From: a virus
Direction: 5' to 3' (one strand)
Virus record (IMG/VR): IMGVR_UViG_3300021964_010405
Coordinates: 1-26,066 of that record
DNA: 26,066 bases
Part shown: one piece after another, positions 6,235-16,469 of the stretch
Layout: every line of letters starts with the position of its first letter
Numbering within the stretch: position 1 is the first letter of the stretch
Notes under the pieces: model-generated
The model's input: only the letters and a program-made list of their open reading frames with translations
The model's database searches: none
What the model was told of the DNA's origin: nothing
Made by a program: the position numbers and the translations under genes

Positions 6235-7158
6235 ATGAAAATATTAATTACAGGTGGATTAGGTTTTATAGGCGCTCATTTAGCAAACGCACTAAGTAAT
6301 CATGATATTACTATACTAGATAAATATGATCTTAATTATATAGGATTTGCAAAAATATATAGAGGACAGGTAGAAGGTATTGTTCCTATATCAGAAATAG
6401 AAGAAAAACACCGAAAATTAAATGTACAATATAGAATATCATTAATTAAAAATATTAATATTATTAGAAAATGGTCTTTTGAGTATTTACCTACAGATTC
6501 TTTTGATTTAATAATAAATTGTGGTGGTTTATCTGAAGCTGTTTTATCTAAGTTTTTTGGAGAGTTTTGTTATAATTCTATTGTAGAAGGTTATAAAAAT
6601 ATTAAAGCTACATATTCTTGTCCTACTATTCATATAAGTTCTTCAATGGTTTATGGTTCTTGGAAAGGAAAAATTACAGAACTAAATACATTAAACCCAG
6701 TTGATTACTATGGAATATGTAAAGCAAAAGCAGAAGGATTTATAGATGAAAATGATATTGTATTACGTCCTATTCACGTATATGGTATTGGAGACGCTAA
6801 ATTTCCAATCTGGATGAATATTGAAAGACAAATAAATAAAAATCAACCTGTAAATGTAGAGGCAGCAGATTGTATTTATATTGATGACTTTGTCCAAATC
6901 GTCAAAAATATTCTTGACTCTTGGAAACCAGGTATATATAATATAAGTTCTAATTACATTAGAAACGGAAAAGATTTACAAAAAGTGTATCCAAAACATT
7001 TTAAAATAAAAGAAAAGTTAGGGCCTACTGGAAAACCGAGAGGTTCTTTAAATAGTTCAAAATTATTTGAAACTTTTAATGTAAAACTTCAGTATAATAA
7101 CTACTTAGAAACAATACAGGATTATTATAATAAATATGAAAATTTATGTAAGAAATAA
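6235..7158 (+). CDS. NAD-dependent sugar-nucleotide epimerase/dehydratase (extended SDR)
   Basis: The 307-residue protein opens with a Rossmann nucleotide site, ITGGLGFIGAHL (residues 5-16). It has a Ser-rich strand IHISSSMVYGS (133-142) and a Tyr-xxx-Lys pair (Y159, K163 in YYGICKAK), the catalytic set of extended short-chain dehydrogenases acting on nucleotide sugars. The middle section (residues 40-80) is unusual and longer than in GalE. ATG directly follows the previous stop, and the 3' end overlaps the bS21 gene by 23 bases. It is probably an epimerase, dehydratase or reductase for the same sugar as the upstream aminotransferase; substrate and product are not deducible. Confidence 0.8.
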   Translation: MKILITGGLGFIGAHLANALSNHDITILDKYDLNYIGFAKIYRGQVEGIVPISEIEEKHRKLNVQYRISLIKNINIIRKWSFEYLPTDSFDLIINCGGLSEAVLSKFFGEFCYNSIVEGYKNIKATYSCPTIHISSSMVYGSWKGKITELNTLNPVDYYGICKAKAEGFIDENDIVLRPIHVYGIGDAKFPIWMNIERQINKNQPVNVEAADCIYIDDFVQIVKNILDSWKPGIYNISSNYIRNGKDLQKVYPKHFKIKEKLGPTGKPRGSLNSSKLFETFNVKLQYNNYLETIQDYYNKYENLCKK

Positions 7159-7390
7159 TAATGTAACTAAAGCGTGGTCTATACTTAAAAAGAAGTTACA
7201 CGAAGATGGAACTTTTAAAAAAGTAAGAGATCAAGCTTATTACATTAGTAAGGGAGAAAAACGTCGTTTAGCCAAAAAAGCTGGAGTGGCTCGTTGGAAA
7301 AAGAAAAAAATACAATTAGACGAACAGTTTGAACGAAACGAGCGTTATCAATTTAAAAACCGTAAAAAGCATATCAGTAAAAAATCTTAA
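7136..7390 (+). CDS. rpsU: Ribosomal protein bS21 homologue
   Basis: The 84-residue basic protein begins MKIYVRNNNVTKAWSILKKK and continues with a kinked helical region ending RRLAKKAGVARWKKKK. This is the bS21 pattern: a short V-x-N/E-x-x strand, a helix of the A-x-x-x-LK-KK type, then a long Lys/Arg-rich helix. bS21 is a small-subunit protein near the 16S rRNA 3' end that helps translation initiation. Phage-encoded bS21 is known, notably in phages of marine alphaproteobacteria, and is thought to exchange into host ribosomes. The C-terminal tail beyond residue 60 is longer than typical. The gene overlaps the epimerase by 23 bases and lies about 0.3 kb before the tmRNA, giving a cluster of translation functions. 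Confidence 0.75.
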   Translation: MKIYVRNNNVTKAWSILKKKLHEDGTFKKVRDQAYYISKGEKRRLAKKAGVARWKKKKIQLDEQFERNERYQFKNRKKHISKKS

Positions 7391-7426: not shown

Positions 7427-7453
7427 TTATTTAACGGAAAAATGGAGATTACA

Positions 7454-7705
7454 ATGAAAGCTTATAAGGGAATTTTTAAAAAGAAAAACGGTGAGTCAAG
7501 AACAATGGTTTTTTCTAGAATTAGTGATTTACCTTCTTCTTTTGTTGCTTCTAAAATTTCAGGGGCGGGATCTGAACAACGATATCCTGAGGGTATGGAG
7601 CTTGTTTGGGATTTAGAAGCAGATAACTTTAGAATATTTAATTGGAAAGCTGTAGAAAGTATGCCTTCACAATTTGATATTGATGAAGATTTATTTAATA
7701 TTTAG
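7454..7705 (+). CDS. Small conserved-looking phage protein, 83 residues
   Basis: The start is taken at ATG 7454 because GGAG (7444-7447) sits six bases upstream; an in-frame ATG at 7442 is four codons earlier but has no ribosome site. The protein (MKAYKGIFKKKNGESRTMVF, ending FDIDEDLFNI) appears mostly beta, with a central PEGMELVWDLEADNFRIFNW segment. I have an impression of similar small proteins in marine T4-like phages but cannot name the family. It is the only protein gene between the promoter at 7398 and the tmRNA, and its stop is followed directly by the tmRNA acceptor region. Confidence 0.6.
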   Translation: MKAYKGIFKKKNGESRTMVFSRISDLPSSFVASKISGAGSEQRYPEGMELVWDLEADNFRIFNWKAVESMPSQFDIDEDLFNI

Positions 7706-8054
7706 TGCTTCGTTTGAGGAGAAGTAGAATAAACATACTGGACCCGGGGGCGGTACCCGGCGACTCCACCATAAGCACACTGCCTGAAAAGGGAAAGGCA
7801 GAGTTGAAACACACTCGGTAAGTCGAAAGACTGAAGTTGGGATCAGGTCCAACCAGTGTGCTTATGATGGGGTCGAAATAGGATCGACAGGTGTAGTAAA
7901 AACTAAACCGAGAAGCAGGTGCGCAAGCGACCTTGACCGCAAGAAACACTATAATTGCCAACGATAACTTCGTAGCAAATGAGGATTATGCTCTAGCAGC
8001 TTAATTACTCGGGGTAAGGGTTCCACCTAGCAACAGAACGGGCCCACCAATTAT
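7706..8054 (+). ncRNA. ssrA: Circularly permuted, two-piece tmRNA
   Basis: The gene has the permuted order seen in alphaproteobacteria. The acceptor piece comes first: a T-arm (stem CCGGG 7744-7748 with CCCGG 7756-7760, seven-base loop), the 3' acceptor strand CGACTCC and CCA ending at 7771. After an intervening segment (7772-7868) comes the coding piece, beginning GGGGTCG (7869-7875). GGGGTCG pairs with CGACTCC over seven base pairs and places a G-U pair at position three, the alanine identity element. The tag frame from GCC 7957 to TAA 8002-8004 reads ANDNFVANEDYALAA. The coding piece ends with a conserved CCTAGCAACAGAA segment (8028-8040) and closing stem. tmRNA frees stalled ribosomes and marks the peptide for proteolysis. 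The outer ends (7706 and 8054) are approximate. The next gene's ribosome site lies directly after it, with no terminator between. Confidence 0.9.
7772..7864 (+). repeat. tmRNA intervening segment bounded by an 11-base inverted repeat
   Basis: TAAGCACACTG (7772-7782) directly follows the acceptor CCA, and its exact complement CAGTGTGCTTA (7854-7864) lies four bases before the coding-piece 5' end. This extends the seven-pair acceptor stem into one long helix in the precursor, closing off the segment that must be cut out. Inside are smaller hairpins: AGTC-GAAA-GACT (7821-7832) with a GNRA tetraloop, GTTGG/CCAAC (7836-7840 with 7849-7853), and TGCCT/AGGCA near 7781-7800. RNase P and other tRNA-processing nucleases would be expected to act here; that is inference. 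Confidence 0.8.
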
Positions 8055-14930: not shown

Positions 14931-16081
14931 TGAAAGTAGAATTAGTTGGAAAGTTTTTTGATAATCACTCTTTGAGTATTATTAATAGAAACTTAGTAAA
15001 ATATTTAAAAGATAAGTGTGATTTATTAGTTACACCTTTAGATTCTGTAACTACCGAATTTGGAGTAGATATAGATACAGTAAAAACGCTAAAAGACCTA
15101 TCAAATAAAAATGCGATTCCTGATATTCAAATTAGGCATACATACCCTCCAATTTGGAATTGGCCTACTAACTCAGATACAAAAGTGGTATTTATTCAAC
15201 CTTGGGAATACACAAAAGTTCCTTTTGAGTGGCAATACAAGTTTGAAACTTTTGCAGATGCTTTATGCGTTCCAAGTAACTTTGAGAGAGATATATTTTT
15301 AAAAGGAGGTATTAATCCTGATAAAATATTTACTGTACCTAATGGATACGATGATAATGTATATAACAAAAAACCTGTAAAACCTTATAAAAATATTGAT
15401 TCTAGTAAGTTTAACTTTGTATTTATCGGTAATGGACAATGGCGAAAAGGTGTTGATATTTTACTAAATCAGTGGAAAGATGCTTTTACTGCTTCTGATA
15501 ATTGCAGACTAATCATTAAAGATAACTCTGCTATTTATGGACATAATAACTTATTAAATGAAGTTATTAAGATGCAGTATAAAACAGGCTGTGCTCCTAT
15601 TGTGTATATTGATGAGCAACTAACTGATGAAGAAATGGCTGCTATTTATAAAAATTCAAAAGTACTGGTGCATCCTTATAGAGCAGAAGGGTTTGGTATG
15701 CATATCCAAGAAGCCTATGCTTGTGGTTGTCTTCCAATTCTTCCAGATTTTGGCCCTCATCAAGATTTTATCCCAGAAGATCATTACCTAAAGATTCCAA
15801 CTGAACAAAAGATGTTTAATATTTGTGATCCGTCTATATTTGCTACAAAGCCAGGAGATGCTACTACCTTAATGAGCACTCATTCTTTCTATAGAGAACC
15901 TATTGGACAAACACTCCAAAATGCATTAAAATATATTTATTTCCATCATAATAAAAAAGAATGGTATAATAAAATTAATGCAGCTGTTCCAGAAAATAAT
16001 TGGAATCATGTAGTAAATAAATATTGGGAGGTACTTGAAAATGTCGCAAACAGACAAGGAACTCAGCGAGCTAGACAATAA
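14930..16081 (+). CDS. GT-B (GT4-type) glycosyltransferase
   Basis: The 383-residue protein has the two Rossmann-like halves of a GT-B enzyme. The C-terminal half has FVFIGNGQWRKGVDILL (residues 164-179) and the retaining-enzyme motif VHPYRAEGFGMHIQEAYACG, with E253 and E261 forming the spaced Glu pair that holds the donor sugar. The N-terminal half has VPSNFERDIFLKGG and VPNGYDDNVY, also typical. Such enzymes retain the configuration of the transferred sugar. It overlaps the previous gene by one base and the Fe-S carrier gene by 41 bases. Confidence 0.82.
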   Translation: MKVELVGKFFDNHSLSIINRNLVKYLKDKCDLLVTPLDSVTTEFGVDIDTVKTLKDLSNKNAIPDIQIRHTYPPIWNWPTNSDTKVVFIQPWEYTKVPFEWQYKFETFADALCVPSNFERDIFLKGGINPDKIFTVPNGYDDNVYNKKPVKPYKNIDSSKFNFVFIGNGQWRKGVDILLNQWKDAFTASDNCRLIIKDNSAIYGHNNLLNEVIKMQYKTGCAPIVYIDEQLTDEEMAAIYKNSKVLVHPYRAEGFGMHIQEAYACGCLPILPDFGPHQDFIPEDHYLKIPTEQKMFNICDPSIFATKPGDATTLMSTHSFYREPIGQTLQNALKYIYFHHNKKEWYNKINAAVPENNWNHVVNKYWEVLENVANRQGTQRARQ

Positions 16082-16469
16082 AATTTTAAGAGATTTTCAT
16101 TTTAACGCTCCACAAATTAACAATGAAGTACAAGGAACGCTACCTACAATTACAAATAAAGCAAAAATATTTATTGAATCTAATTTAACTCCTGGTTCTT
16201 TTTTTCGATTTGGAATTGCTGGTGGAGGATGCTCTGGGTTTAATTATCTACTAGATGAAGATACAGAACAATCAGAAGATGATATTGTTTTTTGTGATTT
16301 ACCTAAAGCTGTTGTAGATAGAGAAAGTTTAAAATATTTATACGGTTCTATAATTGAATTAGAAGAACAAGGATTCGGAAAAAATTTAGTTATAGAAAAT
16401 CCCGGAGCAAAAAGCTCTTGCGGTTGTGGAAGTAGTTTTAATTTTGATTTTGACTTGTTAAATGACTAA
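16041..16469 (+). CDS. A-type Fe-S cluster carrier (IscA/ErpA/HesB family)
   Basis: ATG 16041 is preceded by GGGAGG (16026-16031). The 142-residue protein has a disordered, charged N-terminal 30 residues, then the HesB fold with GIAGGGCSGFNYLL (C64) and KSSCGCGSSF (C127 and C129), the three conserved cysteines that hold the cluster. All three are present, so cluster binding is likely. Cellular relatives pass [4Fe-4S] or [2Fe-2S] clusters to target proteins. Marine phages are known to carry such genes, thought to support host Fe-S metabolism during infection. Here it overlaps a glycosyltransferase and an iron-dependent hydroxylase-like gene. The insert between C64 and C127 is about typical in length. 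Confidence 0.85.
   Translation: MSQTDKELSELDNKILRDFHFNAPQINNEVQGTLPTITNKAKIFIESNLTPGSFFRFGIAGGGCSGFNYLLDEDTEQSEDDIVFCDLPKAVVDRESLKYLYGSIIELEEQGFGKNLVIENPGAKSSCGCGSSFNFDFDLLND

Follow-up and report, generated by a model that had tools for sequence, protein, structure and literature searches.

What does a phage keep between the two pieces of a permuted tmRNA? The question is raised by a locus in a 26-kb virus record of a marine-type phage (IMGVR_UViG_3300021964_010405; the window, as used here, is this whole stretch of 26,066 nucleotides); the spacer of permuted tmRNAs is generally treated as discarded filler. Our reading, to which we assign a probability of about 0.82, is that the locus is a phage-borne permuted ssrA of the alphaproteobacterial type, whose intervening sequence (ITS) would act as an exchangeable, protected cargo slot.

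The two-piece tmRNA and its surroundings

The original prediction had named a permuted two-piece tmRNA of alphaproteobacterial type at 7706-8054 and had proposed a covariance search as a check. ARAGORN detected a permuted tmRNA (tmRNA*) as the sole tRNA-type gene of the window, and the cut-offs of both Rfam models were exceeded: RF01849 (alpha_tmRNA), the top-scoring model in its clan, matched at 7670-8048 (142 bits, E 3.5e-39, cut-off 50) and RF04321 (tmRNA_permuted) at 7707-8004 (114.4 bits, cut-off 47). The predicted position agrees with a gene that starts right after the stop of the upstream ORF (7705) and whose final pseudoknot strand terminates near 8048. The 5' end of the acceptor piece was placed by the P2 pairing of GCUUC (7707-7711) with GAAGC (7912-7916) and by the upstream stop codon (7703-7705). 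The features of the region are as follows.

7136..7390, plus strand: phage ribosomal protein bS21 gene, 5' neighbour (PF01165, 39.3 bits; phrog_21469; synteny)
7442..7705, plus strand: putative gene, a small ORF abutting the tmRNA 5' end, its neighbour in related phages too (synteny)
7706-8048, plus strand: two-piece tmRNA gene (ARAGORN, Rfam)
7706..7771, plus strand: acceptor piece with P2 helix strand, T-arm, acceptor 3' strand and CCA (ARAGORN, Rfam, sequence)
7744..7760, plus strand: T-arm CCGGG-GGCGGUA-CCCGG (covariance-model alignment)
7761-7767, plus strand: acceptor 3' strand CGACUCC, pairing with GGGGUCG at 7869-7875
7769-7771, plus strand: encoded CCA (sequence)
7772..7868, plus strand: ITS, 97 nt, ORF-less, predicted closed multibranched hairpin (sequence, fold)
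7772..7782, plus strand: 5' arm of the ITS closing helix, UAAGCACACUG (fold, helix comparison)
7854..7864, plus strand: 3' arm of the ITS closing helix, CAGUGUGCUUA (fold, helix comparison)
7865..7868, plus strand: UGAU motif beside the 5' end of the coding piece, predicted RNase P site (ITS 3'-end comparison)
7869..8048, plus strand: coding piece with acceptor 5' strand GGGGUCG, D-arm region, pseudoknots before and after the tag, and the tag (Rfam)
7957..8004, plus strand: tag frame ANDNFVANEDYALAA plus TAA, from GCC at 7957 to TAA at 8002-8004 (ARAGORN, sequence)

The anatomy described in the original prediction was read again at these positions: the CCA-ended acceptor segment (7761-7771) lies 5' of the coding segment, the seven-pair acceptor stem with 7869-7875 includes a G-U at pair three (G3:U70, that is G7871:U7765), and the open tag ANDNFVANEDYALAA, with its resume codon, stop and hydrophobic C-terminus all present, ends in YALAA. 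As judged from the sequence, every part of the two-piece tmRNA is intact in the window. The exact tag had no match in 84,980 bacterial and archaeal genomes and was present in two viral contigs, so that the search yielded no host donor. Of the proteins of the window that were examined, none was annotated as SmpB, which is assumed to come from the host. With permissive Rfam settings no other RNA family was found at the locus, barring two sub-threshold matches at chance level, and a known RNA family in the ITS or its flanks was rejected on these grounds.

The claim that the gene is phage-borne held as well, given the virus record, the bS21 gene, an NAD-dependent DNA ligase and families of phage transcription regulators. 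A sugar-nucleotide epimerase, the phage bS21 and the small ORF lie 5' of the tmRNA and a hexapeptide-repeat protein 3' of it, and the arrangement is found again, in part, in eight further viral contigs (L246, L293, L337, L040, L426, L448, L087 and L452), with bS21 5' of the tmRNA in 9/9 syntenic contigs, the window included. Phage-encoded bS21 has been described (Mizuno 2019, cited in PMC7162821) and is likewise encoded here, but in the window it is physically linked to the tmRNA in an order kept in nine contigs, a linkage that points to a possible translation-takeover cassette. The window also carries an Fe-S cluster assembly gene (IscA/HesB-type, PF01521) at 16035-16469.

While the original prediction treated the locus as unusual, phage two-piece tmRNAs are a kind already known and common. 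Such tmRNAs were reported in 2022 in marine phages such as Melnitz; the Melnitz paper counts 53 two-piece structures suggested by ARAGORN in phage genomes, 50 of them from marine or aquatic samples, and the functions guessed for the window, keeping messages moving or redirecting proteolysis, had previously been put forward for Melnitz (PMC9004378). Our blastn search returned tmRNA-like matches in Melnitz, DSS3_MAL1, MD18, RcXuper, V10, DSS3P8 and other records. IMG/VR was scanned for the pattern CTCCACCA-gap-GGGGNCGAAATAGGATCGAC and gave 63 matches with gaps of 142-172 nt and many with gaps of 25-55, 80-110 and 111-141 nt, for which the counts are to be read as "at least". The Melnitz ssrA (MZ577097; PMC9004378) resembles that of the window in being a phage two-piece gene of alphaproteobacterial type with a closed long ITS ending in UGAU; it precedes a late-transcription coactivator with a predicted glutamine riboswitch, whereas the window tmRNA follows bS21 and the permissive Rfam search gave no riboswitch match at its locus. 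The unusual biology of the locus sits in the ITS, which the original prediction did not describe.

The intervening sequence and its closing helix

The window tmRNA shares with the cellular alphaproteobacterial two-piece tmRNAs (RF01849 / RF04321) the order acceptor-ITS-coding, G3:U70, the encoded CCA, the conserved D-loop and T-loop, an ANDN... tag and the ITS-closing helix. It differs in being phage-borne, in having an ITS that is swapped between phages, and in the length of this ITS, 97 nt versus a cellular median of 28 nt (26 parsed loci, from the best-scoring of 289 genomes). Even among 17 parsed cellular loci picked for long spans, one ITS measured 165 nt, the others at most 65 nt, and none held an ORF.

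The predicted fold of the window ITS has an energy of -34.2 kcal/mol (z -3.7), while the interior by itself is mildly stabler than its shuffles (z -1.0). Across 90 distinct phage ITS, the 11 pairs of the closing helix were paired in 92% of cases, compared with 70% for shuffled partners and 29-61% when the arms were slid by 1-3 positions; pairs 2-11 were paired in 89-100%, with many changes on both sides of the arms and the pairing kept. A helix run of at least 6 pairs occurred in 98-100% of ITS, with or without an ORF, versus 16% of shuffles, and TGAT was the commonest phage ITS 3' end (85/97 distinct long phage ITS). As cellular ITS share the closing helix, it is not phage-specific and probably ancestral, and a phage invention was rejected. 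The idea that ORF-less ITS are generally built on a tRNA-like fold was also rejected, with T-arm-like hairpins by the 3' arm in 14 versus 8.9 expected.

Exchange and cargo of intervening sequences

Comparison with relatives shows that the ITS moves between phages separately from the tmRNA body, as the window has one relative with the same body and another ITS and one with the same ITS and another body. A sister phage (L246) shares 95.7% identity with the window across 9.5 kb, and the two tmRNAs match exactly up to the T-arm and again from the end of the D-loop onwards, while the ITS, whose identity equals the background, differs, as do the T-arm, an acceptor pair and two bases of the D-loop; the edges of the exchange are thus not always exactly the ITS ends. 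Conversely, L408 carries the window ITS (96/97 nt identical) in a tmRNA that has unrelated flanks and the tag ANDNFAPSGFALAA; just outside the ITS, its acceptor pairs 5-6 differ from those of the window in a compensated manner. In another pair, L298 and L302, the bodies are identical and the ITS wholly different, each with its own distinct microgene, and in the Ruegeria phage isolates V10 and DSS3P8 the 80 nt 5' of the ITS are 100% and the 3' side 99% identical versus 63% for the ITS, against a background for unrelated ITS cores with a median of 52%, a 95th percentile of 62% and a 99th of 81%. The correlation between ITS and body identity was 0.21 (187 tmRNAs), more than one kind of ITS was found in 29/41 testable body clusters (221 phage tmRNAs), more than one body in 26/34 multi-member ITS clusters, and in 25 pairs an ITS identity above 0.85 was combined with a body identity below 0.70. 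These frequencies, like those for cargo below, describe a sample set by ITS length and exact flanks, among the matches listed.

Many of the ITS in relatives carry a predicted coding microgene and, in one case, a tRNA. A small ORF with a Shine-Dalgarno (SD)-like site was present in 72 of the 227 distinct phage ITS with a length of 75 nt or more, versus about 7 for shuffled sequences and 3 for the reverse strand, and this share varied with length: 0/66 at 75-100 nt (shuffles 1.1, reverse strand 1), 9/37 at 101-110 nt (0.8 and 0), 29/66 at 111-130 nt (1.7 and 0) and 34/58 at 131-175 nt (3.0 and 2). About 78% of the SD-like sites lie in ITS nt 1-14, the region of the closing helix 5' arm. The encoded peptides form recurrent families with synonymous substitution and pN/pS of 0.14-0.45 (sums over non-independent pairs), a mark of purifying selection: 0.21 for family A (MDEVxLWxFRxxCVEYICINNYSxxHARL), 0.45 for ...KYLG, 0.31 for ...YLSGxxKSSNYD, 0.28 for MNWDWHW... 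and 0.14 for MFKAYIxWSICADIxLLAGIIYLVFF, which probably forms one membrane helix. Third codon positions show the most differences, and the ratios of the other frames were near or above 1 where computed. A scan for family A identified 71 contigs, 49 with the gene inside a tmRNA ITS and 22 with a free-standing copy without tmRNA flanks, so that family A is a genuine phage gene family that occurs within the slot as well as elsewhere. The free-standing copies (MDEVxLWxxRxxLVxxICINNYS) were seen in viral contigs L567, L574, L576, L582, L587-L591 and others to L608. No convincing PHROGs or Pfam match was found for the ITS microproteins (best phrog_16066, E 5e-4, unknown function), so that their assignment to known families was rejected, and families A and B had no match in phage isolates.

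The tRNA, a complete tRNA-Arg(UCU) detected by ARAGORN, lies inside a phage permuted-tmRNA ITS (L037:4705-4781); the L581 body resembles that of L037 (88% identical after the ITS), and its ITS holds a family-A microgene. The four Melnitz isolates, among them L241 (MZ577097), contain, under the SsrA annotation, an unannotated 54-codon ORF that starts in the ITS with GGAG upstream and encodes MFKWLSKTRLVVITRDYF...; 33/51 aligned residues are shared with the metagenomic L457, the last part overlaps the tmRNA coding piece, and among phage isolates the ORF matched only the Melnitz strains themselves. The window ITS differs from that of Melnitz in having no ORF. Since it held neither an ORF with an SD-like site nor a tRNA or recognised RNA family, cargo is shown in relatives only, and the window ITS is, on its sequence and predicted fold, an ORF-less, structured version of the cassette. 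We found no discussion of ITS content in the available sections of the Melnitz paper (PMC9004378) and no mention of protein genes in an ITS in the part of the permuted-tmRNA literature covered. A tRNA-Ala gene within a permuted tmRNA ITS of a nominally archaeal MAG was described as unique (PMC11915505); a gene nested in the ITS is common to both, but that tmRNA is cellular, whereas here phage ITS carry a tRNA-Arg (L037) and, in many cases, protein microgenes.

Alternative explanations and a possible mechanism

Alternatively, the locus might be an ordinary ssrA captured from a host, with neutral filler as its spacer: fold-back would be all that the ITS needs, its interior would drift, and fast divergence would look like swapping. 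Such filler would fit with cellular ITS that likewise keep only the closing helix, and with the missing ORF and mild interior stability of the window ITS, yet we consider it unlikely, as near-identical ITS in unrelated bodies (L408 and the window; the 25 pairs) are impossible by drift, and the ORF excess, the pN/pS well below 1 in many relatives and the free-standing microproteins also speak against it. Shared ITS and coding signal refute filler for the family, but not for the window's own ITS interior. That the window ITS is itself a functional structured RNA, e.g. a decayed tRNA or a regulatory RNA, and not empty filler, is a possibility that we hold to be real but doubtful: the whole ITS folds strongly, its closing stem encloses four hairpins, with a T-arm-like 5-bp hairpin adjoining the 3' arm, and it is kept almost unchanged in a different body (L408), but T-arm-like hairpins are not clearly enriched over ORF-less ITS, the interior alone is close to its shuffles, no Rfam family matched, and the identity with L408 may reflect recent transfer only.

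Two further explanations, both highly improbable, concern the contigs themselves. Most loci are metagenomic contigs, the identity of the T-arm and D-arm flanks falls in a range that could confuse assembly, and L245, 100% identical to the window over 12.6 kb, may be non-independent; swaps could thus be artefacts joined at conserved tRNA-like segments. However, a swap of this kind is also seen between the isolates V10 and DSS3P8 and is then not an assembly artefact, the same ITS/body combinations recur in several contigs, and misassembly would require two false joins, with the correct phage picked up again beyond them. A cellular contig that was misclassified and bears a non-functional piece of a bacterial ssrA would suit a 26-kb fragment with no structural genes among those annotated, but not the bS21, NAD-dependent ligase and phage regulator families on the same contig, the synteny in eight other viral contigs, the intact tmRNA parts or a tag absent from the cellular genomes searched.

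For the favoured reading of the ITS as a cargo slot, we propose that a single transcript would be cut by host tRNA-processing enzymes, with RNase P acting at G7869 and 3' processing reaching the CCA at 7771. The two mature pieces would pair, be charged with alanine via G3:U70 and, with host SmpB, add the YALAA-ending tag for host proteases during infection. Within the ITS, the closing helix alone would have to persist for correct folding and cutting, which would allow the interior to change. The conserved T-arm/acceptor before the ITS and acceptor/D-arm after it could serve as homology handles, so that recombination between co-infecting phages would swap the ITS contents with the tmRNA unharmed, making the ITS a protected slot. 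Much more tentatively, and with a low likelihood in our judgement, the phage ITS might be a dedicated, recombination-served niche for microgenes, the translation of which is coupled to tmRNA maturation. In 31/72 cases the ORF runs past the predicted RNase P cut and has its stop codon in the coding piece, in 21 of them at the D-loop UAG and in 10 further on; a cut ITS would then be a stop-less message and its stalled ribosomes would be tmRNA substrates, while a translated precursor might be shielded from cutting, giving a built-in switch between peptide and rescue RNA. This competition between translation and maturation is speculation, and it raises the question of how one transcript is shared by ribosomes and RNase P. 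If the ITS is a cargo slot, annotation pipelines have hidden genes for proteins and tRNAs behind the label "SsrA" in many marine phages, cultured ones such as Melnitz included, and the swapping of tiny genes within an RNA gene that stays intact would offer a clean natural experiment.

Some minor observations concern related tmRNAs. An unusually long tag, ANDNALSNVTFVDFSAPVTAVNEDFALAA, recurs together with short ITS in viral contigs L136, L140, L152, L156, L193, L194, L211 and L212, and in L143 and L144 the tag called by ARAGORN, AKKSTTFASILPVKVERVSLVQEALAASA, does not begin with ANDN and is either divergent or miscalled. In the 84,980 cellular genomes, the pattern with a gap of 80-110 nt gave 41 matches, among them L252, L262 and L277 with phage-like spacers. 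One MAG, Rhodobacteraceae Water_Bin34 (G002), had eight permuted tmRNA matches, probably from phage contigs binned into it. The isolate genome of Pseudaminobacter soli (L277 / G003) contains two permuted tmRNAs, one with a phage-type ITS of 102 nt that equals the ITS of viral contig L064 and likely belongs to a prophage or phage-plasmid.
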